Assembly: GCA_002083825.1 (NCBI GenBank)
Contig: DAZV01000026.1
Location: forward strand, 487,119-551,118
DNA from: Candidatus Sericytochromatia bacterium S15B-MN24 CBMW_12
Lineage (GTDB): Bacteria; Cyanobacteriota; Sericytochromatia; S15B-MN24; UBA4093
Length of the DNA stretch: 64,000 nt
Direction: 5' to 3'
Under the pieces are notes generated by a model that worked only from the letters and a program-made list of their open reading frames with translations, did no database searches and was not told the DNA's origin. The position numbers and the translations under genes are program-made. Every line of letters starts with the position of its first letter. Positions within the stretch are counted from its first letter, which is position 1. Of this stretch, positions 10,184 through 27,818 are shown one piece after another.

Positions 10184-11998
10184 TTACTCGGCGACATCGG
10201 CCGGCAGGTCGATGGTGAAGCGGCTGCCTTTTTCGGGCTGGCTTTCCACGCTGATCCGGCCATGGTGCAACTCGGCCAGCTTCTTGACGATGGTGAGTCC
10301 CAGCCCCAACCCGCCCTTTTGGAGGGCCTCCGCGGCTTCGAGTTGATTGAAGGCCTCCCAGATCCGACTCAGATCCTCCGGCTTGATTCCCTTTCCGGTA
10401 TCCCAGACCACGATCTGAACCCGCCCGTCGCGAGCCATGAGGTCCACCCCGATGCGTCCGCCGCTTGGGGTGGACCTCATGGCGTTCTCCAGCAGTTCCA
10501 GGAGCATCTGGGTGATCCTCCGCGAGTCGCCGCAGATCGTCGGAAGGTCGGGCTCGAAGCGAGTCTCAACCTGGATGTTCGCCTGCTCGAGTTCTAGGGC
10601 CATCACCTCGAGGGCATTGAGCGCGACCTCGGATACCGAAACCTCGGTCTTATACAAGGGCAGGCTGCCACTCAGCATGGCGCTGTAGTCGATCATGTTC
10701 GTGATCTGGGCGCTCAGGCGCCGGCTGCCCTCCTGAAGTCCCTTCAGCAAGACCTCGTCGGGATACTTGTCCTGGATAAGCTCGGTATAGCCGATGATGA
10801 GCGAAAGCGGGGTCTTCATCTCGTGCGAGATGGTCGAGAGGAAGGTATCCTTCAGGCGATCGAGGGACTTGAGTTTTTCCAGGGCCTGCTGAAGTTCACA
10901 CGTCCGATCCGCGACTTGCGCTTCGAGCGAGACCTTCGACTGCTCAAGCTCCTTGGCCATCAGGTTGAAGGAAAGTTCCAGCGCATGGAGTTCTTGCGTG
11001 GGAAGCGGCGGCACGCGTACCCCCCATTCGCCTTCGCCTAGACGCTTGGCCTTCTCCACCAGGAGTTCTATCGGGCGGCTTGTCTGGCGAATACCTAGCT
11101 GGACCAAGTAGAAGACCAGCCCGAAGCCGAGGATCCCGATGCCCATGATGGCGAGCAGCAAGTGCTGGATCATGCCGACGGAGTCGGCGACGGGGATTCC
11201 CGCGACGACGATCCAGCCGGTGGCCGGATGATGGTAGAACGCCGTGATGCGCTCGATCTGGTCGGCCCAGCGCAGGATCAGCGTGCCCTGGGGATGCGTG
11301 AGGATATAGGCCATGGCCGCCGAGACGATGCGTTCTCCCAGGGGGCCCGTGATCTGCGAGCGGGCCAGCCGGCGGCCGGTGGAATCCACCATGTTCACCG
11401 CCACCCGCTGCCGGAAGGCAGGAGCCGAGAAAAAGTTCGCGATGTAATTCGGATCGTAGTGGATCGCCAGGGCGCGCCGCGCCGCCCCCTGCCCGTACGG
11501 ATAGACCAGGGTGAGCATCGGACGCTGGTCGAGAGGCAAGGTGGTGAAGCCGGACATGGTGGGCTCGCCGGTTCGCAGCGCATCCTTGACGAAGGCCTGG
11601 CCGCTAAGGTCGACCGGGGGACTCCCGTAGGGCCTGAAGGTGGATATCACGGCGCGCCCGGAGGTGTCGAGCATCGAGAGACCGAGCCAGCCTGTCGTCC
11701 CCTCGTCGACCCACTTCAGCATGCGGTAGGCCTGGAGTGTCGGGCCGGCTCGAAGCTCGGAGGCGCTAGCCAGCAAGGCCAGAAAGGCCTCTTGCTGGTC
11801 CATCCAGCGATCCAGGCTGGTGTACCCAATCTGCGCCTGGCGGTCGACTTGTCTGAAGTAACTCTGTTTGGCCGCCAGGTAGAGCCAGACCATCAGCCCA
11901 CCGCCGAAGAGCAGAATCGGCACGTAGGCCAGCAGAAAGAGGACCCGGAACCGGGCCCCCAGGCTGAGTTCGTCCCACCAGGCCCGCCAACCTTCCAT
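10184..11998 (-). CDS. Membrane sensor histidine kinase, copy A of a tandem pair
   Basis: The 604-residue kinase has a first membrane helix at about 17-40, then an extracytoplasmic sensor region resembling a Cache-type double domain (about 45-280). A second helix at ~285-312 is followed by HAMP, a coiled-coil, and the HisKA box ISHEMKTPLSLIIGYTEL with the phospho-acceptor His392. The HATPase_c domain has an N box (LLELLENAMR), DTGKGI and GGLGLGLTIV. No response regulator is adjacent. It is a paralogue of the gene directly upstream, with the same length and the same H392. GGGAGGAT precedes the ATG. Confidence 0.92.
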   Translation of the reverse strand: MEGWRAWWDELSLGARFRVLFLLAYVPILLFGGGLMVWLYLAAKQSYFRQVDRQAQIGYTSLDRWMDQQEAFLALLASASELRAGPTLQAYRMLKWVDEGTTGWLGLSMLDTSGRAVISTFRPYGSPPVDLSGQAFVKDALRTGEPTMSGFTTLPLDQRPMLTLVYPYGQGAARRALAIHYDPNYIANFFSAPAFRQRVAVNMVDSTGRRLARSQITGPLGERIVSAAMAYILTHPQGTLILRWADQIERITAFYHHPATGWIVVAGIPVADSVGMIQHLLLAIMGIGILGFGLVFYLVQLGIRQTSRPIELLVEKAKRLGEGEWGVRVPPLPTQELHALELSFNLMAKELEQSKVSLEAQVADRTCELQQALEKLKSLDRLKDTFLSTISHEMKTPLSLIIGYTELIQDKYPDEVLLKGLQEGSRRLSAQITNMIDYSAMLSGSLPLYKTEVSVSEVALNALEVMALELEQANIQVETRFEPDLPTICGDSRRITQMLLELLENAMRSTPSGGRIGVDLMARDGRVQIVVWDTGKGIKPEDLSRIWEAFNQLEAAEALQKGGLGLGLTIVKKLAELHHGRISVESQPEKGSRFTIDLPADVAE

Positions 11999-12099: not shown

Positions 12100-13914
12100 T
12101 TACTTGACGGCTTCGATCGGGAGGTAGAGGATGAAGCGGCTGCCCTGATCCGGGCGACTCTCCACCTCGACGCGGCCATGGTGCAACTCCACCAGCTTCT
12201 TGACGATGGTGAGCCCGAGTCCCAGTCCCCCCGTCCGAATGAGTTCGCCGGTCTCGATCCGATTGAACGCCTCCCAGATCCGGGCGGAATCCTGCTTCTT
12301 CATCCCGATTCCCGTATCCCAGACCACGATCCGGACGAAACCCTCCTGGGACGTAACCTCCACTCCGATCCGGCCCCCGCTGGGGGTATACCTCCGCGCG
12401 TTATCCAGGAGCTCCATGAGCATTTGGGTGATCCGCCGCGAGTCTCCGCGGACCGGGGGAACGTCGGGTTCCAGGTGGGTCTCCACCTGAAGGTTCTTCA
12501 GCTTGAACTCGGTGTCCATGATGTCGAGGGCATTGCGAGCGACCTCGCATACCGAGACCTCGGTCATGTAGAGGGGCAGGCTACCGCCCAGGAGGGCGCT
12601 GTAATCGAGCATGTTGTTGATGTGGGTGGTCAACCGCCGGCTTCCGTCCTGAAGCCCCTTCAGCAGTTCCTCGGTGGGATACTTGTCTTGCAACAGTTCG
12701 GTATAACCGATGATCAGCGAGAGCGGAGTCTTCATCTCGTGCGAGATGGTCGAGAGGAAGTGATCCTTCAGGCGATCGAGGGACTTGAGTTTCTCGAGGG
12801 CCTGCTGAAGCTCTTGGGTCCGGTTCTCGACCTGCGCCTCGAGCGAGACATGGGATTGCTCGACCTCTTCGGCCAACTGGTTGAAGGACCGTCCCAGGGC
12901 ATTCATTTCTCGGGTGGGCAGCGGAGGCACCCGAATTGCCAGGTCGCCTTCTCCGAAGCGGCGGGTCCGGTCGACCAGGATCGCGACAGGCCGGCTCGCC
13001 TGGCGAATGCCGAGCTGGAGCATCCAGAAGACCAGCCCGAAGCCCAGGATCCCGACGCCCAGGATGGCAAGCAGCGTGCGCCGGATCATGCCGACGGAGT
13101 CGGCGAAGGGGATCCCGGCGATGACGATCCAGCCGGTGGCGGGGTGATGGTAGAACGATGTGATGCGCTCGATGTTGTCGGCCCAGCGCAGGCTCAGCGT
13201 GCCCTGGGGTTGCGAGAGGACGTAGGTCATGGCCGGCGAGACGATGCGTTCCCCCAGGGGGCCCGGGAGCTGCGGGCGGGCCAGCCGGCGACCGGTGGCG
13301 TCCACCATGGACACCACCACCCGCTGCTGGAAGGCCGGATCCGAGAAAAAGTTCGCGATGTGGAGCGGATCGAAGTGGATCGCCAGGGCGCGCCGTGCCG
13401 CGCCCTGTCCGTACGGATAGACCAAGGTGAGCGTCGGGCGCTGGTCGAGCGGCAAGGTGGTGAAGCCCGACATGGCTGGCTCTCCGGTTCGCATGGCGCG
13501 CTGGACGTAGGCCTCGTTGCCCAAGTCGACCGGCGGACTCCCGTAGGGCCTGTAGGAGGACATCACGGCGCGCCCGGAGGCGTCGAGCATCGAGAGACCG
13601 AGCCAGCCCACCATCTTCCGGTCGATCCGCGTCAGCACCTGATAGGCCTGGGGAGTCGGGCCGGACCGGATGTCAGGATTGATCGCCAACAGCGCCAGGA
13701 AGGACTTTTGCTGGTCGCTCCAGCGATCCAGGCTGACGTAGGCGATCTGCGCCTGGCGGTCCACCTGTTCGAAGAAGCTCCGCTGGGCCGCTATGTAGAG
13801 CCAGACCATCAGCCAGCCGCCGACGATCAGGACCGGCACGTAAGCCAGCAGGAAGATGACCCGGAATCGGGCCCCCAGGCTGAGTGCGTCCCAAAAGCGA
13901 CGCCAACCTTGCAT
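12100..13914 (-). CDS. Membrane sensor histidine kinase, copy B of a tandem pair
   Basis: The architecture matches copy A: two membrane helices around a ~240-residue periplasmic sensor region, HAMP, HisKA with His392, and HATPase_c with an N box (LMELLDNARR), DTGIGM and GGLGLGLTIV. The 604-residue length is identical and most motifs are shared, including YGSPPVDL and MSGFTTLPLDQRPTLTLVYP in the sensor region. Differences are spread along the protein, so the duplication is not recent. The spacer between the copies is 101 bases. The ligand is unknown. Confidence 0.92.
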   Translation of the reverse strand: MQGWRRFWDALSLGARFRVIFLLAYVPVLIVGGWLMVWLYIAAQRSFFEQVDRQAQIAYVSLDRWSDQQKSFLALLAINPDIRSGPTPQAYQVLTRIDRKMVGWLGLSMLDASGRAVMSSYRPYGSPPVDLGNEAYVQRAMRTGEPAMSGFTTLPLDQRPTLTLVYPYGQGAARRALAIHFDPLHIANFFSDPAFQQRVVVSMVDATGRRLARPQLPGPLGERIVSPAMTYVLSQPQGTLSLRWADNIERITSFYHHPATGWIVIAGIPFADSVGMIRRTLLAILGVGILGFGLVFWMLQLGIRQASRPVAILVDRTRRFGEGDLAIRVPPLPTREMNALGRSFNQLAEEVEQSHVSLEAQVENRTQELQQALEKLKSLDRLKDHFLSTISHEMKTPLSLIIGYTELLQDKYPTEELLKGLQDGSRRLTTHINNMLDYSALLGGSLPLYMTEVSVCEVARNALDIMDTEFKLKNLQVETHLEPDVPPVRGDSRRITQMLMELLDNARRYTPSGGRIGVEVTSQEGFVRIVVWDTGIGMKKQDSARIWEAFNRIETGELIRTGGLGLGLTIVKKLVELHHGRVEVESRPDQGSRFILYLPIEAVK

Positions 13915-15010: not shown

Positions 15011-15466
15011 TCAGCTTCCCAGCGCTTGGTCGAGTGCCTGGCGAAGGCTCAATCCCGAGGTCGGGCCCACGAAACGCTTCGTGGGTCGTCCCGTGGAATC
15101 CAGGATCACGAAGGTGGGAGTGGCCCGGACGCCCAACTTTGCGCTCAGTTTTCTCACGGAGTCTCCCTCCGGGTAGTCGTTCAAACGATCGATCTCGTAG
15201 ATCTTGACGGTCGCGCGCCCCTCGTAGTCCCTTCGGATCCCGTCCACCACCGGCCGAAGCACGATGCAAGAAGGGCAGTGCGTCTGACTGAACTCCAGGA
15301 GCACCGGCTTTCCGCCGGTCAGAAAGTCGATCGGTTGCCCGCCGATTTGCTCGCCTGAAGAGGGCAGGACGTACCGTCCGACTATCCAGGCGAGCATCCC
15401 GATGGCCGCGACGTTGAGCCCGCGTTCGAGCCAGACCTTCCAGCCTGACTTGCTCTTAGCGGGCAC
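15011..15466 (-). CDS. Membrane-anchored thioredoxin-fold protein (CPSC)
   Basis: A single N-terminal membrane helix (about residues 17-33) is followed by a thioredoxin domain with C64-P-S-C67 and a cis-proline region ATPTFV. It probably faces the periplasm and acts in thiol redox chemistry or cytochrome maturation, like TlpA relatives. The GTG at 15464-15466 has GGAAAG about ten bases upstream and lies inside the end of the MMPL gene (11-base overlap). It is the last gene of the six-gene 15-24 kb operon. A GTG three codons earlier is possible. Confidence 0.85.
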   Translation of the reverse strand: MPAKSKSGWKVWLERGLNVAAIGMLAWIVGRYVLPSSGEQIGGQPIDFLTGGKPVLLEFSQTHCPSCIVLRPVVDGIRRDYEGRATVKIYEIDRLNDYPEGDSVRKLSAKLGVRATPTFVILDSTGRPTKRFVGPTSGLSLRQALDQALGS

Positions 15467-17705
15467 GGCGACCACTCTTTCCGAATCCGCGCCAGTTCCA
15501 GTCCCCCGCAAGGCGCATGAGGGCTGGTACCAGGAGGATCCGGATGATGGTGGCATCCACCAGCACGGCCACGGCGAGTCCCAGTCCCAGCATCTGCACG
15601 ATCACCATTTCGGCCCAGGCGAAGGCGCCGAAGATCACGACCATGATGAGCGCGGCGGAGGTGATGATGCCGGCGGTGGAGGCCACGCCTTCGACGGTTG
15701 CGTGGGTGTTGTCGCCGGTTTCATCGTAGACTTCCTTGATTCGGTGGAGCAGGAAGACTTCGTAGTCCATCGAGAGGCCGAAGATGATACAGAAGAGCAT
15801 CAACGGGATGCTCAGGGGAATCGCGCCCGAAGGAGCGCTCAAACCGAATATCTGGGCGCCCCAGCCGTACTGGAAGACGGCGACGATGGTTCCGTAGGCG
15901 GCTCCGACCGAGAGCAGGTTCATGAGGACGGCTTTGATGGGGACCAGGAAGGATCGGAAGGCGAGGGTCAGGACGAGCAGGGTGGCGAGGACGACGAAGC
16001 CGATGACCCAGGGGTAGACGCCGAGCATGGCGGCGTCGAAGTCGTTGTAGAAGGAGGCTTGTCCTCCGACGAGAACGGTGAAGCCCGGGGGGGCTTTTTT
16101 TCCGAGTTCGGCGGCGAGGCGTTTGGTTTCCTCGAAGGGGACGCCATCCTGGAGGGTGAGGTACATGTAGGTCGAGTGGCGATCGCGGCTGAGGAAGAGA
16201 TCGCCGAGCAGGGGGTACTGTTTGATGGCGGCATCGAGGTTGCGGTAGAGCATGAAGTACTCGGCGGGTCCCATTCCGGCGCGGAGGTCGACGGGGCCGG
16301 CGACTTCGGCGACGCGGGAGTCGGCCTTGAGTTCGCGGGAGTAGGCGAGGAGTGCGGGAAGGGTCTCGAGGCTGAGGGCGTCTCGATCGGATTTCAGCAC
16401 GAGGTGGACGGGGGCGATCACTCCGCCCTTGCCCATGGCCATGAGGGCGTCGTGGCCTTGCTGGAACTCGAGTCGTTCCGGGAGCCATCGTCCGTCGGGG
16501 AATCCGAGTTTGATGTCGACGGCGGGCCAGGACAGAGCGGCGATCAGGACGAGGGCCGAGAGTCCGAAAGGGATGGGGCGTCGCATGATCCGCTTGGCCC
16601 ACCGCCGCCAGGCGGGTTGTTGAGCGGCGAGCGTCGGTAGTTTCAACCAGCGCGGCGAGTCCACGCGGGGCCCGAGGACTCCCAGCAGAGCCGGTAGCAG
16701 GGTCAGGGCGAGGGTAACCGACCCGATCACCACGATGAAGCCGCCCCAGCCGATGGATCGGGTGTCAAGGATGGGGGTGGCAGCGAGGCCTGCAAAGCCG
16801 ATGAGCACGGTAAGCCCGGAGAATAGCACGGCGAGGCCGGCCGTTGAGACGGTTTCCTCGATGGCCTGGGAGGTTTCGAGTCCGCGGGCGAGGGCGTCAC
16901 GGAAGCGGTTGACCATCAGGAGCGAGTAATCGATGCCCATGGCGAGTCCGAGCATGGTGGAGACGCTTTGGGCGAAGGCGGTGAGTTCGATCGTTCCGGC
17001 GACGAGGAAGAGCAGTCCCTGGGTGAGGACGATGGCGCATGCTCCCATGACGAGGGGGATGCCGGCGGCGGCGAGGGTGCCGAAGGCCAGCAGCAGTACG
17101 AGGATGGTGAGGGGTAGGCTGCGCGTTTCGGCTTTGCTGGTATCCTCGGTGCTGAACTGGTTGATGTCGTAGGTCAGGGCGCCTCGGCCGGTGACGTGCC
17201 ACTCGAAGCTGGGATCCTGTTTCCGGGTTTCGAGTCCCGCGGCTTGGATGGCTTGGCGGATGGCGGGAACGGCTTTTTCGGCTCCGCGCACGTCCCGGGC
17301 GTTGAGGCCGATGAAGGCGAAGGTTTCGCGCTTGTCGCGAGAGAGCAGGCGGACGTCGTCGGCCGCGGGGTAGGCGGTGACGTCGGAGACGTCTGCATGG
17401 GCCTCGAGACTCGCGACGGATTCTTGCAGGAAGGATCGGAAGGCGGGGTCGTCGACGGTCTGGCGATCGCTCTTGGCCACCAGTACCAGGACCTGGGAGT
17501 AGGGGTTATTGAATTCGCGGGCGAGGATTTGCTCGACGCGTTCGGATTGGCTGCCGGCGATGCCTCCGGTGCCTCCCGCCAGGACCTGGGTGATGCGAGA
17601 GGCTCCCAGGCCGGCGACGGCTACGGCGACGAGCCAGAGGGCGATGACGGCGAGTCGGTGGCGGTAGAGCCAGGCGCCCAGCCTGGTGAAGCGCGCTTTG
17701 AGCAT
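15456..17705 (-). CDS. MMPL/RND family lipid transporter
   Basis: The 749-residue protein has two repeated halves, each with one helix, a ~130-200-residue periplasmic loop and a cluster of five helices. Typical MMPL/RND segments are GLAMGIDYSLLMVNRF (TM4-like, about 255-270) and IIFGLSMDYEVFLLHRI (about 640-656), whose Asp-Tyr pairs are the proton-relay positions. Relatives export lipids, hopanoids or lipopeptides. The position after an acyl-AMP ligase suggests export of a lipid made by this operon. GAGGAG precedes the ATG. Confidence 0.94.
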   Translation of the reverse strand: MLKARFTRLGAWLYRHRLAVIALWLVAVAVAGLGASRITQVLAGGTGGIAGSQSERVEQILAREFNNPYSQVLVLVAKSDRQTVDDPAFRSFLQESVASLEAHADVSDVTAYPAADDVRLLSRDKRETFAFIGLNARDVRGAEKAVPAIRQAIQAAGLETRKQDPSFEWHVTGRGALTYDINQFSTEDTSKAETRSLPLTILVLLLAFGTLAAAGIPLVMGACAIVLTQGLLFLVAGTIELTAFAQSVSTMLGLAMGIDYSLLMVNRFRDALARGLETSQAIEETVSTAGLAVLFSGLTVLIGFAGLAATPILDTRSIGWGGFIVVIGSVTLALTLLPALLGVLGPRVDSPRWLKLPTLAAQQPAWRRWAKRIMRRPIPFGLSALVLIAALSWPAVDIKLGFPDGRWLPERLEFQQGHDALMAMGKGGVIAPVHLVLKSDRDALSLETLPALLAYSRELKADSRVAEVAGPVDLRAGMGPAEYFMLYRNLDAAIKQYPLLGDLFLSRDRHSTYMYLTLQDGVPFEETKRLAAELGKKAPPGFTVLVGGQASFYNDFDAAMLGVYPWVIGFVVLATLLVLTLAFRSFLVPIKAVLMNLLSVGAAYGTIVAVFQYGWGAQIFGLSAPSGAIPLSIPLMLFCIIFGLSMDYEVFLLHRIKEVYDETGDNTHATVEGVASTAGIITSAALIMVVIFGAFAWAEMVIVQMLGLGLAVAVLVDATIIRILLVPALMRLAGDWNWRGFGKSGRRAR

Positions 17706-17730
17706 GGGAACTCCTCGTTTTGCCTGCGGT

Positions 17731-19368
17731 CTAGCTGATCCGGCTCAAGTGGCGTCGCAGCTTGGGGTAGTCGATTTTGACGTTATGGCGGGGATCCACG
17801 GGCATCTTGCGGACGAAGCAGATGCGATCGGCCGGCATTCCACTAAGTTCCAGCTTCGAGTGGGCCGCGGCTCGCCATTCCTCGCGCTTTCGCCGCGAGC
17901 TCCACTTGCGCGGCTCGAGGGCCACGACCACCTTCCCCTCGAGATCCAGGACGGCGGCCTTTTTCACGAAGTCGAGTTGCTGGGCCACGGCTTCCACCGG
18001 GAGCGGATAAATCGTTCGGTGGCCTTGCGTGATGAGGTCGTTCACGCGTCCGAGCAGCCAGATGCGTCCGTCGGAGTCCAGGTAGCCGACGTCTCCGAGT
18101 CGGTGCCAGAGGGTGCCGTCACGGTCTCGGATCTTGTTTTCGCGCACGGCCTCCGGGTTGCGGTAGTAGTCTTTGCCGACGTGGTCGCCGGTCACGATCA
18201 GTTCGCCGACTTCGCCGCGGGGCATGGCGAGGGTCGCGAGTCCTTCGGGGGGGGCTTCGACGGGCCCGTTGACGATCCGGATCACCTCGAGTCGGATGCC
18301 ATGGGCGGGCCGTCCCACGCAGTTGCCGCGCCCCTGGCGGGTGAGTTCGCCGGTTTCCTCGCAGACCTCCTGGGCGGAGATGAGGGCCACGGGTTCGGCT
18401 TCGGTGGAGCCGTAGCCGATGAAGGCCTGGCCGTTGGGCATCAAGGGTCGCAGGATTTCGAGGAGTCCCGGGGGAACGGGTCCGCCGCCGGTGAAGAGGG
18501 TGCGCAGGGTGGGAAGTTTCAGGCCGTGGTCGACGCAGTGGTCCGCGATGGGCTTCCAGTAGGCTGGCGAGCCCACGGCCGTCGTGATCCGGTGGTCCCG
18601 GATCTGGCGCAGGATGACCTTGGGGTCGACATCCGAGGGGCTCGCCCTCATGGGGAGGACGCTGGTGACGCCGGCGGCGAGGTTGTTGAGCACGAAGATG
18701 GGCAGGGTGGTGAGGTCGACGTCCCCCGGCCGGAGGCCCATTTCTCGGCAAAGGGCCTTGTGCTGGGCCACCAAGAAGCCGTGGGTGCGATTGGCCCCCT
18801 TGGGGGTACCGGTGCTGCCGGTGGTGAAGGTGATGAGGGCGGTGGTATCGGGTGCGACGTCGAGGGTGGGCGCGGGGGGATGGTCCTCGTCGAGGAGGCG
18901 TTCCAGTTGGATCTCGCCGAGGATGGCGGGTCCCCGGGCGGTCAGGCGAAGGGGAATGGGGGCGAGGATTCCGGTCAGGCGGGCCATGAGCTGGATCATG
19001 GGGATGCCGGCGAAGGCCTTGGGTTCGGTGAGGGCGATGCAGCGTTTGATCTGCGCGAGACCGACCCAGGGGTCGATGAAGACGATGATGACGGCGCGCT
19101 TGAGGAGGGCGAGCAGGAGGGTGTAGAGTTCGAGGCTCATGGGAATCATGACGACCACGCGATCGCCGCTCGCGAGGCCGCGGGCTGTGAGGGCGGCCGC
19201 GAGGCGGTTCACCCGGCCCTCGAGTTCCGCGAAGGTGAGCGTCTCGTCCTCGATGGATCCGTCGGGCCGCAGGCGGCGCGGGAAGATGATGGCGGGGCGA
19301 TCGGGAGTCGCTTTCGCCCAGTGATCGAGGTAGCCGATGACGTTCGAGTGCGTGATCAGGGTTTCCAT
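17731..19368 (-). CDS. AMP-dependent acyl/aryl acid ligase (ANL superfamily)
   Basis: The 545-residue adenylating enzyme has a phosphate-binding loop TFTTGSTGTPKG at residues 180-191, IGYGSTEAEPV (A5) and GDVGYLDSDGRIWLLGR (A7-A8). The expected C-terminal lysine lies near NVKIDYPKL. It resembles OleC/fatty-acid-CoA ligase subfamilies, but no OleA, OleB or OleD gene is adjacent, so the acid substrate is open. It sits five bases after the YghO-like gene and 25 before the MMPL exporter. Confidence 0.88.
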   Translation of the reverse strand: METLITHSNVIGYLDHWAKATPDRPAIIFPRRLRPDGSIEDETLTFAELEGRVNRLAAALTARGLASGDRVVVMIPMSLELYTLLLALLKRAVIIVFIDPWVGLAQIKRCIALTEPKAFAGIPMIQLMARLTGILAPIPLRLTARGPAILGEIQLERLLDEDHPPAPTLDVAPDTTALITFTTGSTGTPKGANRTHGFLVAQHKALCREMGLRPGDVDLTTLPIFVLNNLAAGVTSVLPMRASPSDVDPKVILRQIRDHRITTAVGSPAYWKPIADHCVDHGLKLPTLRTLFTGGGPVPPGLLEILRPLMPNGQAFIGYGSTEAEPVALISAQEVCEETGELTRQGRGNCVGRPAHGIRLEVIRIVNGPVEAPPEGLATLAMPRGEVGELIVTGDHVGKDYYRNPEAVRENKIRDRDGTLWHRLGDVGYLDSDGRIWLLGRVNDLITQGHRTIYPLPVEAVAQQLDFVKKAAVLDLEGKVVVALEPRKWSSRRKREEWRAAAHSKLELSGMPADRICFVRKMPVDPRHNVKIDYPKLRRHLSRIS

Positions 19369-19373
19369 GCGGC

Positions 19374-20462
19374 TCAGGCCTCCCGCTCGAAGAGGGCGTA
19401 GCGTTTGAGAGTTTCTCCTCCGAAGCGATGGGACATGCGAAGGCTGGTGTTGTCCTCTCGCATGAGGGCGTGGAGGGTTTGGGCGTAGCCCTTTCGGGCG
19501 GCCGCTTCGTGCATGAGGTAGGTGAGGGCCAAGGCGAGCGAGCCGTTCCGGTGATCCGGCAGGACGCCGAAAGTCTTGAGCAGGGCAGCGGGGTTATTTC
19601 GGCGCTCGGTCAGGAAGCGCACCTTGGCGAAGAGGCTCCGGCTGCCGTTCATGGCGCGGATGGCAGGCCCGTAATCCGGCAGCCCGAAGACGAAGCCGAC
19701 CGGCGTCTCACCCTGGAACAGGAAGTGGCAGAGGTCGGGATCCATGATGCCGCGCATGCCCGCGTAGAGGGCCCGGAACTCGGCGAAGTCGATGGGCCGC
19801 CACATCCAGGAGTCCTGGAAGATGGCGGTGGAGAGGTCGTACATGAGCCGCAGTTCGGCGTCGAAGCGGTTGGGGTCGAAGGGTCGGGAGCGGTAGCCGG
19901 CCGCGAGGCTTCGGTCGTGGTGGCGCGAGACGGCGGCGGCGAAGGCGGCGGAGTCGACGCGGGTGGAGCTGTAGCTGCAGCGGGGCTTGAAGCCGAACCG
20001 TTCCCAGTGCTCGGGGTAGTGGTTGGGGTTGTAGGGCTCCATGAAGAAGGGTTCGTGCTCGAAGCCCTCGGTCATGAAGCGATAGGGGAAGTAGGTGCTG
20101 GTGTTGATGGGGCCTCGAACGACGGTCACGCCGCGTTCGCGCAGCCAGTCGAGGGCCGCGCTCAGGACGGCCTGGGAGGCCTCGTAGTGGTCGAAGGCTT
20201 CGAAGTAGCCGATGAAGCCGAGATCGTCGTCGTAGCGTCGGTTGATCATGGCCGAGCAGCGGGCGATGGCCTCGTGGCCCTCGAAGGCCAGGAAGTGGGC
20301 CATGTCGCCGTGACGGTGAAAGGGGGCATGGGGGTCGAGTTCCGCCCGGACGGCTTGTCTGAAGGGCGGGATCCAGGCGGGATCCGCGCGACGAATCCGG
20401 GCGGGCAGGTCTAGGAACTTCCGGAGCAGGCCCGCGTCCTGCCCGAAGGTCAGGACCTTCAT
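19374..20462 (-). CDS. YghO-like GNAT-fold protein
   Basis: This 362-residue protein resembles the YghO group of GNAT-type proteins. The N-terminal DLPARIRRADPAWIPPFR is the group's characteristic opening, followed by HFLAFEGHEAIARCSAMINR and RGPINTSTYFPYRF in the acyl-transferase-like core. The natural acyl acceptor is unknown. The ATG shares a base with the stop of the PEP-synthase-like gene (TGATG), a sign of coupled translation. An upstream continuation of the open frame is antiparallel-free read-through into the neighbouring gene and is not part of the protein. Confidence 0.82.
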   Translation of the reverse strand: MKVLTFGQDAGLLRKFLDLPARIRRADPAWIPPFRQAVRAELDPHAPFHRHGDMAHFLAFEGHEAIARCSAMINRRYDDDLGFIGYFEAFDHYEASQAVLSAALDWLRERGVTVVRGPINTSTYFPYRFMTEGFEHEPFFMEPYNPNHYPEHWERFGFKPRCSYSSTRVDSAAFAAAVSRHHDRSLAAGYRSRPFDPNRFDAELRLMYDLSTAIFQDSWMWRPIDFAEFRALYAGMRGIMDPDLCHFLFQGETPVGFVFGLPDYGPAIRAMNGSRSLFAKVRFLTERRNNPAALLKTFGVLPDHRNGSLALALTYLMHEAAARKGYAQTLHALMREDNTSLRMSHRFGGETLKRYALFEREA

Positions 20463-23164
20463 CAGGGTTCCGGGTTGAGGCGGACGATGCCGAGTCGGGC
20501 GTCCATCTCGACGAGTTGGCCGTCCTTGACTCGCTTGGTGAGGTTCTTGATGCCCACGATGGTGGGAAGTCCGAGTTCTCGGGCGACGATGGCCGAGTGG
20601 CTGAGGATGCTGCCGCGCTCGATGAGCAGGCCGGAGGCCGCGGGGTATAGCGGAACCCAGCCGGGATCGGTTCGTTCGGCGACGAGGATCTGGCCGTTGA
20701 GGCTCATGTCGTCTTCCGGGGAGCGGATCACGCGGACGACGTTCTTGATCGTGCCGGGGCAGCAGCTGATTCCCTTGAGCAAGTTGGGGTCGTCGGGTTC
20801 GTTGGAGCGATCGCCCTCGAAGTGGTTGGCGTGGTGGACGGTTCCGAAAGTCTTGAAGCGGTCGTCGATATCCTCCGCGCGGTAGCGGGCGAATTCCTCC
20901 TTGCGCAGGGCCGCGAGCCCCTTGAGATTCGTCGAGGTGGCGGTTCCCTGGACGTAGCCCCAGATCTCGTCGAGGTTGAGGTAGAAAATATCCTGGGAGT
21001 CGTCGAGCACGTCCCAGGTGGCGAAGGTGGCTCCGATGGACTGGAACATGTCGCGCAGGACGCCGAAGATCTTGGTTCGGGCGAAGCGCATGTTCTCGCG
21101 GTTCTTGACGTGACGGCGGGCGTTGAAGGTGACCCAGCGGAAGAGGGCCAGCCGGACGGGATTGCTGGCCAGTTTCTGCTTGACGAGTTGCTCGGCGAGC
21201 ACGCGGATGCGGTGTTCGTTTTCTTCCATGGCGGCGATGTCGAGCTTTTCCAGTTTCAGGTAGTTTTTGACCATGGCGAAGATGAAGGACGGATCTTCCT
21301 TGAGGTTTTTCTCTTCGAGTTTCAGCTCGTTCATGCAGCGGTAGCCGTACTTGTCGAGAAAGTCCCGGACGCTGTCGCGCATCTCGGGGAAGCGATCGGC
21401 TTTGGAGAGGGCGGCCCAGATGTCGGAGTCGGGGGTATGGCGGAAGAAGTCCGCGAGGGCGGGGTCGGCCTTGGCACGGATGGCCATGCGCATGATGGCC
21501 TTGGTGGGTTCGGTGGATTCGATTTCGCCTTCGCCGCAGAGGAGGTCGTTTTGCAGGGAGCCTGAATCGTCGTCGCAGAAGGAGACGCAGAGTTTCTTCA
21601 GGACGCCGTAGAAGACCATGGCGGCGATGTCGGTGAGGATGGGGGCTTGCCAGTTCCAGAGCAGGCGTTGTTCGAGGTCGTGGTAGCAGACCTTGATGGC
21701 GTCGGGGCGCAAGGCTTTCCAGTCGGTGGCCTTGTACTCCCCGTAGGTTTCGTTGAAGTTCGCCTGGAAGTGGGCCACTTTGCGGTCGATTTTCCGGTAG
21801 TTGTCGAGTAGCCTGAAGACGACCATGAGGAGCTTTGGTAGCTCGCGGTAGTCTTTCTTTTCCGTTTGGTGTTCGCTTTTTTCCTTGACCCCCATCATCT
21901 GCTCCATGAAGCCCTTGTTGTAGTTGAAGCCGGGGAGGAGGGAGGTCATCTGGTACCAGTTGCCGAGGTTGTAGAAGACGCGGCCGCGGACGAGTCCGAG
22001 CAGGTTGCGGTAGGTTTGTTCGTTTTGTCGGATGACCGCGTCCGAGATGCCGAGCGCGCGGCAGACCTGGTTGTAGACGATATTGTAGGCCTGGGAGGCG
22101 AAGGAGAAGGTGAGCGGGGAGGTGACGCCCGAGTAGGACTCGGTAATATTGGAGTTGTCCCAGATGATCTGTCGGCCGTCCTTGGCCTGGGGGACCTTGA
22201 GGTTGGTGATGGGTCGGGATTGCAGGATCAGGAACCGGCCTTCGCTCAGGGCCCATTCGATGTCCTGGGGCGCTCCGTAGCGTTTTTCGATTTCCGAGCC
22301 CATGCGCGCCAGCTCCTGGGCTTGCTCGGGGGTCAGGCAAGCGATTTCCTGGAGTTCGAGCGGCACGGGAACTTCGCGGGTGCCGTGTCCGCGTTGGTCG
22401 TCGAAGGCGATCATGAGGGGCTTGGCGACGCGTTCGGTGGCGAGCTCGCCGGATTCCTTGCGGACCTGGAAGGAGTCGGTGTCGAGGGCGCCGGAGACGA
22501 TGCCTTCGCCGGTGCCGTAGGTGCCGTTGATGACGAGGAGGTCGCGATCGCCGCTCAGGGGGTCGGCGGTGAACATGACTCCCGAGACGCGGGGGTTCAC
22601 CATTTCCTGGACGATGACGGCGATGTCGATGGCCAGGACATCTGCGCCCTTCATAAACCGGTAACTCAGCGCGCGTTCGGAAAATGCGGACGCCCAGCAG
22701 GCTTTGATGGAGGTGGTGATGGCATCTTGACCCTTCACGAAGAGGAAGGAGTCCATTTGGCCGGCGTAGGAGTCCTTGGAGCCGTCTTCGCCGAGGGCGG
22801 AGGAGCGGACGGCGACGAAGGTGTCGGGGAAGGACTCGGCGACTTGAAGGCGGAAGGGTTCGAGCAGGGTCTCGGGGAGGCTTTGGGCCATGATCAGGGC
22901 GTGGATGGTCTGGCTGGCGGCTCGGACGGCCTCGAGTTTCTTGAAGTCGAGGGTGCCGAGCAGATTGCGGACGACGTCGAGGAGGTTTGAGTCCTCGGCG
23001 GGGTTTCCGCGCATGAAGGCGCGGAAGGTGGAGACGGGCAGGGTGAGGAAGCGGGGGACGGGGAAGCCGTTTTCCGTCAGGAAGTGGAGGTTGGCGGCCT
23101 TTCCTCCGAGTTCCTGGTCATCGCGGGGGGGGGCGGCGAGGTCGGCCTGAGGCTCGAGGATCAT
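20462..23164 (-). CDS. PEP-synthase/pyruvate-phosphate-dikinase-like phosphotransferase
   Basis: The 900-residue protein has an N-terminal ATP-grasp PPDK domain (about 15-330), with GGKAANLHFL, the ATP loop RSSALGEDGSKDSYAGQ and VQEMVNPRVSGVMFTADP. The central part (about 340-780) is not PEP-synthase-like. A C-terminal swivelling phosphohistidine domain carries RGSILSHSAIVARELG with His855. The TIM-barrel PEP/pyruvate domain seems absent, which favours the rifampicin-phosphotransferase-like layout: ATP phosphorylates His, which then modifies a small molecule. It follows the UbiA-like gene by 11 bases. A nine-G run lies in its early codons. Confidence 0.87.
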   Translation of the reverse strand: MILEPQADLAAPPRDDQELGGKAANLHFLTENGFPVPRFLTLPVSTFRAFMRGNPAEDSNLLDVVRNLLGTLDFKKLEAVRAASQTIHALIMAQSLPETLLEPFRLQVAESFPDTFVAVRSSALGEDGSKDSYAGQMDSFLFVKGQDAITTSIKACWASAFSERALSYRFMKGADVLAIDIAVIVQEMVNPRVSGVMFTADPLSGDRDLLVINGTYGTGEGIVSGALDTDSFQVRKESGELATERVAKPLMIAFDDQRGHGTREVPVPLELQEIACLTPEQAQELARMGSEIEKRYGAPQDIEWALSEGRFLILQSRPITNLKVPQAKDGRQIIWDNSNITESYSGVTSPLTFSFASQAYNIVYNQVCRALGISDAVIRQNEQTYRNLLGLVRGRVFYNLGNWYQMTSLLPGFNYNKGFMEQMMGVKEKSEHQTEKKDYRELPKLLMVVFRLLDNYRKIDRKVAHFQANFNETYGEYKATDWKALRPDAIKVCYHDLEQRLLWNWQAPILTDIAAMVFYGVLKKLCVSFCDDDSGSLQNDLLCGEGEIESTEPTKAIMRMAIRAKADPALADFFRHTPDSDIWAALSKADRFPEMRDSVRDFLDKYGYRCMNELKLEEKNLKEDPSFIFAMVKNYLKLEKLDIAAMEENEHRIRVLAEQLVKQKLASNPVRLALFRWVTFNARRHVKNRENMRFARTKIFGVLRDMFQSIGATFATWDVLDDSQDIFYLNLDEIWGYVQGTATSTNLKGLAALRKEEFARYRAEDIDDRFKTFGTVHHANHFEGDRSNEPDDPNLLKGISCCPGTIKNVVRVIRSPEDDMSLNGQILVAERTDPGWVPLYPAASGLLIERGSILSHSAIVARELGLPTIVGIKNLTKRVKDGQLVEMDARLGIVRLNPEP

Positions 23165-23175
23165 GGGTTTTCTCC

Positions 23176-24123
23176 TTAGAAGTTCAGGCGGATGCCTTGT
23201 CCGGCAAGCGAGCCGAGGGCGATGGCGAGGTAGCTCGATAGCATGGTGACGGCGGCCCAGTCGCCGAGTCTCCGGGCGCCCTTGGCGGTGGGCTTGCGCC
23301 AGAAGAGGGCGAAGCCGACCTGCATGAGGATGACACCCACGAGGAGGATCCCGAAGGCGTAGGGGGGGAAGTCGAGGAAGACGCCGAGGGCGCCCGCGCA
23401 GGTGGCGCCGGCGCCCAGGATGGCGAAGGCGAGCACGGAAGCGCCCGAGGGGCCGAAGTGCTTGGAGTAGGTGTCTATTTGGTCGTGCTCTTCCTCGGGC
23501 ATGCGGATCTTGCGGGACATTTCCCAGCCCAGGCCGGTGCCGACGCCCATGCCGAGTTGCAGCCAGAACATGGCGTTCCAGCCTCCACCGGTGGGGATGG
23601 CCACCAGGCTGTAAACATAGAGACAGAGCAAGGGCGTGATAAGTTGATGTGTCAGCGCGTAGACGATCAGGTGGCGGTTCAGCCACTCCGCGACGAAGAA
23701 CTCCTTGAACATCACCATGGCGAAGGCGATGACAATCAAACATGCTGCCACTGCTGGGAGACCGACGAGGGCGTTGACCAGCAGCATGACGGCGATGACG
23801 ACGGCTCCGACGATTTTCAGCTCGGAGAGGGGCATGATGCCGCGGGAGACGATCCGGTCGGGGTGGGCGACGACGTCCTTGGCGTAATCCTTGAACTCGT
23901 CGAGGATCCTCAGGAAGAAGAGGGCGAAGAGGACGGTGATCATGCCGGCGATGGCCGGCATCCCCAGCAAGGTCTCGCGGGGGCGCAAGAGGCGCTCCGA
24001 GAGCAGGTAGCTGCTGAAGAAGAAGGCGATGACCACCACCAGGTGCGTCGCAAGCGGGAAGCGCTCGTCGAGGTACAGCTTGAAGCGCTTCGCGAAGGGC
24101 AGGTCGACCGATTGGGTGGCCAA
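23176..24123 (-). CDS. UbiA-like polytopic prenyltransferase family protein
   Basis: The 315-residue protein has about eight or nine membrane helices. A DxxxD-type motif, LRILDEFKDYAKD (residues 71-83), is followed by HPDRIVSRG, as in UbiA enzymes that bind Mg-prenyl diphosphate. A second acidic loop, EMSRKIRMPEEEHDQ, takes the place of the second Asp motif. The substrate is unknown. I choose the TTG at 24121-24123 because GAGGAG lies six bases upstream; a GTG eight codons earlier would place that site inside the coding region. It is the first gene of the operon. Confidence 0.8.
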   Translation of the reverse strand: MATQSVDLPFAKRFKLYLDERFPLATHLVVVIAFFFSSYLLSERLLRPRETLLGMPAIAGMITVLFALFFLRILDEFKDYAKDVVAHPDRIVSRGIMPLSELKIVGAVVIAVMLLVNALVGLPAVAACLIVIAFAMVMFKEFFVAEWLNRHLIVYALTHQLITPLLCLYVYSLVAIPTGGGWNAMFWLQLGMGVGTGLGWEMSRKIRMPEEEHDQIDTYSKHFGPSGASVLAFAILGAGATCAGALGVFLDFPPYAFGILLVGVILMQVGFALFWRKPTAKGARRLGDWAAVTMLSSYLAIALGSLAGQGIRLNF

Positions 24124-24278
24124 TGGATTCTCCTCTCTGGGTGACACTAGGTAGTTTTACCCCAGGTAAGCGCCGATTGAAAGCTCCATGGGCGGGGCCG
24201 CGCGCAGCCGGCGACGTGAAATGTTCGCGCTTGCCCGTGGTACAAGGCTTCTGGACCGAGAAAGTGAGAGGCCAAGAC

Positions 24279-25433
24279 GTGAAAGACGCAACTCCCCTGA
24301 AAAACCGGACACAACCCCTGCGAGTCACCCGCAACCTCCGCTCCGAGGTCGCCGATCGCCCTTTCTTCCGTAGTATCGGCTACAGCAACTGCTGGGAAGA
24401 CCCGGAGATCCTGCAAGAAGCGCTGCAGGTGGGCTCGGGGGACGTCTGCTTCTCTATTACCTCGGGAGGCTGCAACACGCTCGATCTGCTGCGCCATGAC
24501 CCGGCTCGCGTCGTCGCCCTCGACTTCAACCCCAACCAGAATCACCTGTTGCGACTCAAGATAGCGGCGTTCCAGACCCTCGAGCATGGCGAGATGCTCG
24601 AATTGCTAGGGATACGCGAATCCACCCGCCGCCGCTCGCTGTTCCGCAAGCTCGAGGTAGCCCTGCCGGGTGAAACCCGCGATTTCTGGGAAGCGAATCG
24701 GGTCCTGGTGGAGCGCGGCGTCATGGTTTCAGGCCGCCTGGAGCGCTACCTGCTGGCCTTCGGCAATCTCATGCGCACGATATACGGCGGCAAGCGAATC
24801 CGGCGATTCTTCGATTGTGACTCGCTCGACGCGCAGCGCGCCTTTTACGAGAAGGAAATCGACGGTCCCCTCTGGCGGGTGATTTTCGACCTCTTCTTCA
24901 GCCGGGCGGTCATGAGCCGCACCAAGGACAAGGAACACTTCCGGCTGGTGGATTTCCAGGATTTCGGGAAGATCTTCCGGGCTCGCACCGAGCATGCATT
25001 CACGCGGATTCCCCTTCGCGGCAATTACTTCCTGGCCCTCATTCTGCTGGGGCACTACCTCGACGAGGACGCCCTGCCGGCCTACCTGACGCGCGCGAAC
25101 TTCGACCTCATGCGCGAACGGGTCGACCGTATCGAGATCGTCACCGGCGAGATCGAGCAGTACCTGGTGAGTCTTGCGGACGATACCTTTACGCGCTTCA
25201 ACGTCTCCAACCTCTTCGACTGGATCCAGACGCCGATCTTCATCCGGCTTCACGAGGAGATTGTTCGCACGGGGCGCAACGGGGCGCGCATGGCCAACTG
25301 GAATACCTTGCTCGCGCGGCCCATTCCCGCGGAGGTGACCCAGATCGAGAGGCTAGCGATCGGCGCCGAGCTTCTCGAGCGGGATCGCGCTTTTCTCTAC
25401 GCGAACCTCGAGGTAGGCGTCATCAACAAGTAG
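24279..25433 (+). CDS. BtaA-like (DUF3419) SAM:diacylglycerol 3-amino-3-carboxypropyl transferase
   Basis: This 384-residue protein matches the BtaA/DUF3419 family. It has YSNCWEDPEILQEAL (residues 35-49), the SAM-binding ITSGGCNTLDLL (60-71), ALDFNPNQ (80-87) and the C-terminal TRFNVSNLFDW. Characterised BtaA makes diacylglyceryl-homoserine, the first step to betaine lipids; BtaB, the N-methyltransferase, is not seen here. The GTG start at 24279 has GAGAGG upstream, and another GTG five codons earlier is possible. It is divergent from the UbiA-led operon and overlaps the next gene, on the opposite strand, by 81 bases. Confidence 0.87.
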   Translation: MKDATPLKNRTQPLRVTRNLRSEVADRPFFRSIGYSNCWEDPEILQEALQVGSGDVCFSITSGGCNTLDLLRHDPARVVALDFNPNQNHLLRLKIAAFQTLEHGEMLELLGIRESTRRRSLFRKLEVALPGETRDFWEANRVLVERGVMVSGRLERYLLAFGNLMRTIYGGKRIRRFFDCDSLDAQRAFYEKEIDGPLWRVIFDLFFSRAVMSRTKDKEHFRLVDFQDFGKIFRARTEHAFTRIPLRGNYFLALILLGHYLDEDALPAYLTRANFDLMRERVDRIEIVTGEIEQYLVSLADDTFTRFNVSNLFDWIQTPIFIRLHEEIVRTGRNGARMANWNTLLARPIPAEVTQIERLAIGAELLERDRAFLYANLEVGVINK

Positions 25434-26345
25434 TCTGCCCGAGATCACCCGCAAGGCCCCGGGCACGACGCTGAGTTCCATGCGTTTGCTCGTGGCCAGC
25501 ACCTCGCCGTCCCCGATGAAGACCTTGTCCTCGGAGGCGGTGATCGTGAATGCGCGCCCTTCGCGCATCATGACGTCCTTGCGGCGGGAGTGCCTTCCCT
25601 TCAGACTCATCAGGGTGACCGTCACGATGGATTGCAGGCGGTTGCGCTGACGCATGACGCAGAGGCCCAGTTTACCGTCCGCCATGTGGGCACCGGGGTA
25701 GGAGACCACGATCTTGCCGATGGAAGGCTGGTTGTTGACGAAGAGCGCTATCGTGCGCATGGGGCCAAGATCTTGCCCATCGGCGGAAACGGCGAGATCG
25801 CTGACGATTCGGCGGGAGAATAGCAGCAAGATGAAGCTGTAGAGGACGTAGACCGGGCTCCCGAGGATCTTGACGGTTTTCCGGATGGCTCCTTGCCGGG
25901 CCTTGAGCCGATTGACGCCCACCGCGACGTCGCTGAGGACGCCCAGGCCGCCGGCGGTGGCGAAGAGGCGGTCGTTGACGCGGACGAGGTCGATGGTCTG
26001 GACCAGGCCTCTGCGAGCCACGGCGCAGGCCCCGCGGGGATTGAGCGGGATGTCCAGGTGGGAGGCGAGATCGTTGGCGGTTCCGGCGGGGATGATGGCG
26101 AGGGGCGTGGCGGAGTGGGCGAGTTGATTGACCACGGCGTTGACGGTGCCGTCTCCGCCGACGACGAGGACCAGGTCGGTGCCGTCGGTGGTGGCGGCTT
26201 TGGCGGCCAGGCAGAGGGCCTGGTAGGAGTCGGGAGTGAGGACGTTGAGGTGGCAGTCGGCGAAGGCGCTCCGGATGGCGTCGAGGCGTCGGCGATCGCA
26301 GCCGTTGCGGGCCGCTCGATTGATGAGTACGGTGACTTTCCGCAA
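25353..26345 (-). CDS. Diacylglycerol/lipid kinase family protein
   Basis: The 330-residue protein has the DAGK catalytic motif VVGGDGTVNAVV (about 61-72) and AGTANDLASHL (about 87-97), with the C-terminal beta domain containing FIGDGE. Family members (DgkB, YegS) phosphorylate diacylglycerol or related lipids. The start is a TTG (26343-26345) with GGGAGGG about nine bases upstream; an ATG seven codons earlier would put that site inside the gene. Its 3' end overlaps the BtaA-like gene by 81 bases tail to tail. Confidence 0.87.
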   Translation of the reverse strand: MRKVTVLINRAARNGCDRRRLDAIRSAFADCHLNVLTPDSYQALCLAAKAATTDGTDLVLVVGGDGTVNAVVNQLAHSATPLAIIPAGTANDLASHLDIPLNPRGACAVARRGLVQTIDLVRVNDRLFATAGGLGVLSDVAVGVNRLKARQGAIRKTVKILGSPVYVLYSFILLLFSRRIVSDLAVSADGQDLGPMRTIALFVNNQPSIGKIVVSYPGAHMADGKLGLCVMRQRNRLQSIVTVTLMSLKGRHSRRKDVMMREGRAFTITASEDKVFIGDGEVLATSKRMELSVVPGALRVISGRLLVDDAYLEVRVEKSAIPLEKLGADR

Positions 26346-26543
26346 AAAACACTCCCTCCCTTGCATTCCAACCCTGGAATTATCCCTGGTGGGACGGGTT
26401 CCTGTATAGCGAAACAACGATTCTTCCGGAGAGCAAGGGCGGGAAATCAGCCCCGTTGAAAGGGACTAAGCGCGTCCGCGAGGGGTGAGCTTGGCCGGTC
26501 GTTCTGGGTATGAAGAGTCTGAAGCGAAGGTGATGAGTGCTTC

Positions 26544-27818
26544 ATGCCCAGAAGAGAGGACGCCGGGATGTATCCATCCGACCCCAGGGAGCCCTTTGCC
26601 GCATCGGTCCCGTACAAGAAGGCCTACACCGAGGATTCGCTGGCCGCCCGTCGGGCCTGGACCGAGGAGAAGACGCAGCGCGATCTCTCCGCGCTGGATG
26701 GTCGGACGCCCGGGGACGCGGCGATTTTCAAGGGAAACATCGAGGGGCATATCGGGTTCGTGCAGATCCCCATCGGGGTGGCGGGACCGATCTTGATCCT
26801 GGGGGAGCATGCCCAGGGGCATTTCTACGTTCCGTTGGCGACGACGGAGGGGGCTCTGGTTGCGAGTTGCTCGCGCGGGGCGCGGGCGGTCACGGAAAGC
26901 GGCGGGGCGAGCGTTCGGGTGGTCAAGGATCAGATGATGCGCGCGCCGATGTTCACGTTCGAGTCGCTGATAGACTCCGTGGCGTTCGTCGCCTGGGTGG
27001 AGCGTCACGAGGCCAACATCCGGTCGGTTGCCGAGAGCCAGTCACGAATCGCCAAGCTTCTCGATATCTCTCCGATCAACCTGGGCGATATCGTCTGCCT
27101 CCAGCTCTCGTACTTCACGGGGGACGCCTACGGGGCCAACATGGTCATGAAGTGCTCTTGGGCGGTCTGTCAGTACATCCGGACGGAGTTTCCGCGCGAG
27201 ACGGGCATCACGCCGATGGACTGGTATATCGACTCGCAGATGGGGGCTGAGAAGAAGGTCAACGCGATGACCTACAGCACGTCGCTGCGCGGCAAGCGGG
27301 TCGTGGCCGAGGTTCATCTGAAGCGGGACGTGATGAATCGGATATTGCGGGTGAGCCCGGAGGATCTCTTCGAGGCGCTGGTGGCGGGGGTGGGTCCTAA
27401 CATCGCGTCGGTTTCCATAGGCTGCAACGTGAACTTCGCGAACGCGGTGGCGGCGATCTTCGCGGCGACGGGCCAGGACGTCGCGTCGGTACCGGAGTCG
27501 GCGCAGGGGCAGCTGTCCTTCAGGTTGGAGGCGGACGGGATGTACTTCGGGGTGATGATGCCGGGGGTGGTGGTGGCGACGGTCGGCGGAGGCACCGGCC
27601 TGCCGAGCCAGCGGGCCTGCCTGGAGATGATGGCTTGCTACGGGACCGGCAAGGCCAAGAAGCTGGCCGAGATCGTGGCGGTGACGGCCATGTGCCTGGA
27701 TCTTTCGACGTACTCGGCGATTGCCGCCGATCACTTCGTGCAGGCCCATGAGCGCCTCGGGCGCAACCGCCCGCGCACCGGTCAATTGGTCCCACCCCCT
27801 GGGTTCAAGTCTTCTTAG
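26544..27818 (+). CDS. Divergent HMG-CoA reductase
   Basis: The 424-residue protein aligns with class I HMG-CoA reductases: ATTEGALVAS (Glu102), AEKKVNAMTY (Lys237), ATGQDVASVPES (Asp312) and the final QAHERLGRN (His402) give the four catalytic residues. The normal DKKPAAINW and DAMGMN are altered to AEKKVNAMT and DAYGANM. It would make mevalonate from HMG-CoA, but no other mevalonate gene is in the window. The ATG at 26544 has AAGGTGAT nine bases upstream; an ATG eight codons later with GAGAGGA is an alternative. It overlaps the GAF gene by 14 bases, tail to tail. Confidence 0.88.
   Translation: MPRREDAGMYPSDPREPFAASVPYKKAYTEDSLAARRAWTEEKTQRDLSALDGRTPGDAAIFKGNIEGHIGFVQIPIGVAGPILILGEHAQGHFYVPLATTEGALVASCSRGARAVTESGGASVRVVKDQMMRAPMFTFESLIDSVAFVAWVERHEANIRSVAESQSRIAKLLDISPINLGDIVCLQLSYFTGDAYGANMVMKCSWAVCQYIRTEFPRETGITPMDWYIDSQMGAEKKVNAMTYSTSLRGKRVVAEVHLKRDVMNRILRVSPEDLFEALVAGVGPNIASVSIGCNVNFANAVAAIFAATGQDVASVPESAQGQLSFRLEADGMYFGVMMPGVVVATVGGGTGLPSQRACLEMMACYGTGKAKKLAEIVAVTAMCLDLSTYSAIAADHFVQAHERLGRNRPRTGQLVPPPGFKSS

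Follow-up and report, generated by a model that had tools for sequence, protein, structure and literature searches.

A widespread gene cluster around a PEP-synthase-like phosphotransferase, represented in a sericytochromatial genome, is a candidate lipid-biosynthesis operon

We describe here a gene cluster in a 64,000-nucleotide stretch (the window) of contig DAZV01000026.1 from Candidatus Sericytochromatia bacterium S15B-MN24 CBMW_12. A run of six minus-strand genes (15,011 to 24,123) encodes a UbiA-fold membrane transferase, a phosphoenolpyruvate (PEP)-synthase-like phosphotransferase (PPS), a YghO-type GNAT acyltransferase, an AMP-forming acyl ligase, an MMPL-family exporter and a membrane-anchored thioredoxin-like protein (Table 1). 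An original prediction from the nucleotide sequence had named these families and described the genes as joined by gaps of 5–25 bases or by overlaps; domain searches find all six, and with refined starts the successive spacings are 11, -1, 5, 25 and -11 bases. A terminator scan gave zero sites between the six genes, and fewer sites than in shuffled sequence. Divergent from the UbiA gene is a DUF3419 gene, and genes for a lipid kinase and an HMG-CoA-reductase (HMGR)-like protein are adjacent, extending the unit to position 27,818.

Table 1. Genes of the cluster in the window
Product	Position	Strand	Features
Membrane-anchored thioredoxin-like protein, 151 aa	15011..15466	-	CPSC motif; GTG start; PF13098/PF00085
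MMPL-family exporter, 749 aa	15456..17705	-	PF03176 E 5e-77
AMP-forming acyl ligase, PRK09274 group, 545 aa	17731..19368	-	PF00501 E 1e-56
YghO-type GNAT acyltransferase, 362 aa	19374..20462	-	start inside TGATG overlap with PPS; YghO profile match
PEP-synthase-like ATP-dependent phosphotransferase (PPS), 900 aa	20462..23164	-	PPDK_N, own middle domain and phospho-His swivelling domain
UbiA-fold membrane prenyltransferase, 315 aa	23176..24123	-	TTG start at 24123, GAGGAG upstream; PF01040
DUF3419 (BtaA-type) putative 3-amino-3-carboxypropyl transferase	24123..25433	+	PF11899 E 1.2e-69; true start probably downstream of 24123
YegS/DAGK-type lipid kinase	25353..26417	-	PF00781 E 1e-24
Class I HMG-CoA-reductase-like putative acyl-thioester reductase	26544..27818	+	PF00368 E 2e-102

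Comparison of the window genes by tblastn with 16 PPS loci of related genomes places a UbiA gene beside or near PPS in 14, the remaining two loci starting at or near a contig end, and genes for DUF3419, lipid kinase, HMGR, GNAT, AMP ligase and MMPL proteins also recur there. One relative (G002) carries a single same-strand run of eight genes in the order MMPL-UbiA-PPS-DUF3419-GNAT-AMP ligase-HMGR-kinase; the kinase is adjacent in its cluster as in those of G004, G006 and G008, and MMPL proteins of 45–49% identity are found in the clusters of G002, G003 and G010. The middle domain of PPS, which is the family-specific part, was used as a query against genome contigs and identified at least 541 confirmed loci, from which the best 80 by similarity to the window PPS were taken as a non-random neighbourhood sample spanning about 20 phyla by record title. 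Clustering of the open reading frames at these 80 loci, performed independently of the window genes, yields UbiA (56 loci), AMP ligase (50), DUF3419 (43), GNAT (34, plus a second GNAT type at 14), a membrane kinase-like protein that we refer to as PhyK (31), and HMGR (25). At the 37 loci with full flanks (7 kb or more to either side of PPS), UbiA is present in 33, DUF3419 in 32, AMP ligase in 31, GNAT in 28, a lipid kinase in 26, HMGR in 17 and MMPL in six. The gene pairs look translationally coupled, as they are nearly always on the same strand with a median overlap of about four bases: adjacent UbiA and PPS genes share a strand in 56 of 56 pairs (median overlap 4 bases), HMGR adjoins UbiA in 14 loci with the same median overlap, and the neighbouring AMP ligase-GNAT (26/26) and DUF3419-kinase (31/31) pairs are all on one strand. 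DUF3419 also follows PPS at the level of whole genomes, being present in 21 of 22 tested genomes with the PPS family versus one of 14 controls; it is single copy in the genome of the window, and in G006 and G008 it sits on a contig other than that of the cluster.

Conservation of the neighbourhood had been set beforehand as the test of the predicted gene set, and both the relatives and the 80 loci strongly support it; with the same families recurring around PPS in both, the gene set is not a product of chance. Its composition does need redrawing. The core comprises the UbiA-fold transferase, PPS, DUF3419, the YghO-type GNAT and the AMP ligase, together with a lipid kinase, often an HMGR-like protein and sometimes an exporter, so that the six-gene borders were too narrow in omitting the DUF3419, lipid kinase and HMGR-like genes, and the thioredoxin gene, counted as a member, adjoins no other cluster examined. 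On balance we favor the view that the window contains one version of a widespread and undescribed lipid-biosynthesis operon.

The cluster protein is almost certainly misnamed as a PEP synthase. Its Pfam domains are PPDK_N and PEP-utilizers alone, with the C-terminal PEP/pyruvate-binding domain (PEP-utilizers_C) not found by Pfam search, and it scores 293.9 bits against TIGR01418, for which the cut-off is 739.75. It does pass NF004881 ("phosphoenolpyruvate synthase"; 892.7 vs 883), but given the missing PEP-binding domain this model is probably itself misnamed, and genomes have probably been annotated wrongly on that basis. Alignment of the orthologues shows that the ATP-binding and phospho-His regions are retained, with the SILSHSAIVAR catalytic region conserved in 16 of them. 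PPS has in common with rifamycin phosphotransferase and the PigC/RedH ligases an ATP-grasp domain and a phospho-His swivelling domain that flank a middle domain, but it reaches only 17–37% of their cut-off scores and has a conserved middle domain of its own. That it is about equidistant from the RedH, PigC and rifamycin phosphotransferase models, and that some Bdellovibrionota clusters encode a PigE-like reductase domain, could suggest that the PPS-like protein is a condensing ligase of the PigC/RedH type in the synthesis of a secreted small-molecule natural product. We regard this as very improbable, because neither pyrrole nor PKS/NRPS genes (polyketide synthase/nonribosomal peptide synthetase) recur in the 80 neighbourhoods, and because the very wide distribution and the lipid kinase are better suited to a membrane lipid.

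The window transferase matches PF01040 with an E value of 1e-6 and a score of 28.3, below the gathering score of 34.2, but its modelled fold and two acidic motifs place it within the UbiA superfamily. The motifs (R71..D74/K77/D78/D82 and E200/R203/K204) are conserved family-wide, and the AlphaFold2 model (pLDDT 94) has archaeal DGGGP synthase (7bpu/6m31) as its best fold match in the PDB (E 7e-7), with TM scores of 0.65–0.69 that correspond to superfamily-level similarity. The "prenylated" alternative in the predicted "lipid or prenylated" product is best treated as tentative. An ebo-type cluster (EboC) was considered and rejected, the UbiA match being weak. At two loci from genomes of the same order (L024 and L025), CdsA-, PssA- or Psd-like genes of phospholipid synthesis accompany PPS and the GNAT gene, an arrangement that ties the cluster to polar head-group synthesis. 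These neighbours, the fold match and the presence of DGGGP models among the weak NCBIfam matches of the UbiA protein are all compatible with an archaeal-type isoprenoid ether lipid, for which the UbiA protein would be a DGGGP synthase and PPS and the kinase would supply phosphorylated backbones. Identity to DGGGP synthase is 14%. This reading is nonetheless quite improbable, as no convincing GGGP synthase (PcrB, PF01884) was found in the 21 genomes searched (20 gave none and one gave a marginal partial match), and the GNAT, AMP ligase and DUF3419 proteins would be left unexplained.

The HMGR-like enzyme is the most unusual part of the set. We aligned 31 rows (30 distinct; 26 from inside clusters and the others from cluster-bearing genomes) to 6hr7, an archaeal class I enzyme, using human residue numbering. 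All 31 keep E559, K691, K692, N755, D767 and H866, and so have both the sequence family and the catalytic residues E559/K691/D767/H866 in common with 6hr7 and human HMGCR, but S684 is replaced in all by E or D, K735 by M, L, I, V, A or S, and R590 by an uncharged residue, with S684 and K735 both present in 6hr7. In HMGR, the HMG carboxylate is salt-bridged by K735, with S684 as a polar contact (PMC9500038, from which the roles of the catalytic residues are also taken). Because the catalytic residues are kept and the contacts to the HMG carboxylate are lost, we predict a four-electron thioester reductase acting on a substrate that lacks this carboxylate; judged from its residues, the cluster enzyme probably forms an alcohol by reduction of a different acyl thioester. 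The window-clade enzymes form a separate deep branch (support 100/100). The first tree omitted class II sequences because of their low scores against the class I profile, and it was this omission that revealed the split: the genome of the window has a second HMGR, of class II (C36:3518), near genes for mevalonate diphosphate decarboxylase and a GHMP-kinase-like protein, whereas the cluster enzyme is class I-like and lies outside this mevalonate operon. DXR was not found in this genome. Methylomonas, Alkalilimnicola and Microcoleus have a clear DXR and a single HMGR, located in the cluster, and no mevalonate diphosphate decarboxylase above cut-off. HMG-CoA synthase (PF08540) was found in none of 29 genomes, which may reflect a limit of the model since genomes bearing the decarboxylase also gave none.

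These observations bear on a further explanation, that the cluster combines isoprenoid supply with synthesis of a prenylated quinone-like compound. HMGR would make mevalonate, the AMP ligase would activate an aromatic acid and UbiA would prenylate it. The presence of UbiA and HMGR together, frequently as overlapping neighbours, is what such a pathway would predict. We find it unlikely, however, in that the HMG contacts are lost in every cluster-type HMGR, the window's genome has its separate class II enzyme with a decarboxylase, and the carriers of a clear DXR have no decarboxylase above cut-off; moreover, the UbiA protein is closest to DGGGP synthase rather than to UbiA or MenA, three other UbiA-family genes are present in the same genome, and aromatic-ring genes do not recur in the 80 neighbourhoods.

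In betaine lipids BtaA performs S-adenosylmethionine (SAM) aminocarboxypropyl chemistry, and BtaA and BtaB are all that these lipids need (PMC10685587); DUF3419 is predictive of diacylglyceryltrimethylhomoserine (DGTS) synthesis in algae (PMC6642084). Because DUF3419 (PF11899) is related to BtaA, a SAM-derived aminocarboxypropyl group is expected, the donor being assigned by family, and by this analogy we think it reasonably likely that the lipid carries one. A variant DGTS-like pathway, with DUF3419 as BtaA and the other enzymes modifying a diacylglycerol backbone, would account for the algal association, and kinases of the cluster's lipid kinase family act on diacylglycerol-like lipids. Yet methyltransferase families, BtaB included, recur in none of the 80 neighbourhoods (unlinked BtaB was not searched for), and the further conserved enzymes would be unexplained given that betaine lipids require only BtaA and BtaB, so we give this pathway a low probability.

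In a one-sequence search the cluster GNAT profile matches YghO of E. coli with an E value of 5e-43, the acyl-CoA loop G.GLG is conserved, and homology also links the two cluster GNAT types (hhalign probability 100). The Caulobacter ceramide synthase CerS is likewise YghO-like. Caulobacter ceramide synthesis (CerS, AasR and ceramide kinase; PMC11324152) resembles the clusters in having an acyl ligase and an N-acyltransferase, with a lipid kinase encoded nearby, but the serine palmitoyltransferase family recurs in none of the 80 neighbourhoods, a result that concerns neighbourhoods and not whole genomes, which were not searched. The AMP ligase scores 470.8 bits against NF006754, for which the cut-off is 478. 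Its assignment as OleC was rejected, with scores of 311.8 versus 900 and 265.3 versus 850 bits that are far below those equivalogs, and no OleA or OleB families recur in the 80 neighbourhoods. The exporter belongs to the same MMPL (RND) family as the lipid exporters MmpL3 and HpnN but scores far below both cut-offs, and only some clusters contain one. Some clusters end instead with a LolD/DevA-type ABC ATPase and an FtsX-like permease (L066:16768-17463 and neighbours), a possible alternative exporter.

The lipid kinases are of two kinds. PhyK, found in other phyla, has a CTP-transferase-like N-terminal half, and YegS-type kinases take its place in the window, its close relatives and the Bdellovibrionota. 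PhyK was considered as a full VTE5-VTE6 (phytol kinase/phytyl-phosphate kinase) fusion and rejected, the N half being CTP_transf_1-like at 73% and the C half DUF92/VTE6-like at 33% (hhalign). At the 37 full-flank loci the CTP-type and YegS-type kinases never share a locus (Fisher p 0.003), and the two DUF3419 types are likewise never found together, a pattern that a need for one of each would produce. Several Bdellovibrionota loci without HMGR (L093:2-2074, L060, L062 and others) encode an acyl-ACP-reductase/PigE-N-like protein, a short-chain dehydrogenase/reductase, a P450 and a second DUF3419 type; the acyl-ACP-reductase-like protein of some of these clusters matches TIGR04058 (E 8e-17). The gene content of these loci points to a pathway that runs in parallel. 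Statistical exclusivity of HMGR and this reductase was not significant (p 0.61), and the substitution is anecdotal only. At some cyanobacterial loci and one planctomycete locus (L103:6590-7618, L114:5122-6300, L104 and L072), genes for a radical SAM/SPASM protein and a membrane protein (c32) precede UbiA on its upstream side, and HMGR is absent from the vicinity.

We are fairly confident that the operon makes a polar lipid, which in the window is exported by the MMPL protein. In a plausible scheme the AMP ligase would activate a fatty or branched acid, perhaps a 3-hydroxy acid, and the HMGR-like enzyme would convert an acyl thioester into a lipid alcohol by reduction. Phosphorylation of lipid alcohols by the lipid kinase and the PPS-like enzyme may then give substrates to which the UbiA enzyme could attach a prenyl group. 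In a reaction like that of BtaA in betaine lipids, DUF3419 would attach the SAM aminocarboxypropyl group to a lipid hydroxyl; the GNAT may add an acyl chain, possibly at the new amine, and the MMPL protein would move the product outwards. Each step is ordinary chemistry for its family, although for HMGR the acyl group would not be the usual one, and it is the shared operon that leads us to join them into one path. The order is a guess, unlikely to be right as written, and the product is one that we infer. The predicted sequence of lipid intermediate, acid activation, transfer and export is a fair outline, although it was drawn without the DUF3419, kinase and HMGR-like genes, which are the most telling on the chemistry.

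Several observations weigh against this interpretation. No prenyl donor synthase is within the conserved set, and neither HMGR, absent from about half of the full-flank loci, nor MMPL, absent from most, may belong to the core. The window-clade HMGRs additionally have D690 replaced by E and H752 by N, so their activity may differ. The kinase assignment of PhyK, which has no PDB fold match, derives from a weak profile match, and the exclusivity of the kinases is in part driven by lineage. G001, the nearest relative, encodes a secreted-looking TPR-like protein instead of the GNAT at the position between PPS and the AMP ligase (L023:11874-12939).

Every family in the cluster is already known, but, as predicted, the combination matches no named system in the open-access literature, where we found no paper linking DUF3419 with UbiA or describing the whole gene set; subscription journals were outside the scope of the search. 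If our reading is right, misleading enzyme names (PEP synthase, HMG-CoA reductase and UbiA) have hidden a lipid pathway that cyanobacteria, planctomycetes, methanotrophs, Bdellovibrio relatives and many other bacteria have in common. An HMGR-family enzyme with a different substrate would represent an activity not seen before, and to deduce a mevalonate pathway from a genome on such an HMGR alone would be an error. A more speculative possibility is a new class of bacterial membrane lipid, built on an alcohol formed by an HMGR-fold acyl reductase and bearing both a prenyl chain and an N-acylated homoserine ether derived from SAM, that is common in many phyla and unrecognised by lipidomics.

Two further features of the window lie at or beyond the downstream end of the operon. 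The thioredoxin-like gene overlaps the MMPL gene by 11 bases and is probably a local addition or accessory, perhaps a partner of the exporter; no thioredoxin was found beside other clusters, and one weak match at L036 is an ordinary thioredoxin at least about 4 kb from PPS. Downstream of the operon are two tandem, closely similar minus-strand genes for sensor histidine kinases of 604 aa each (10184-11998 and 12100-13914), the first with Cache, HAMP, HisKA and HATPase domains, and the pair looks like a recent duplication.

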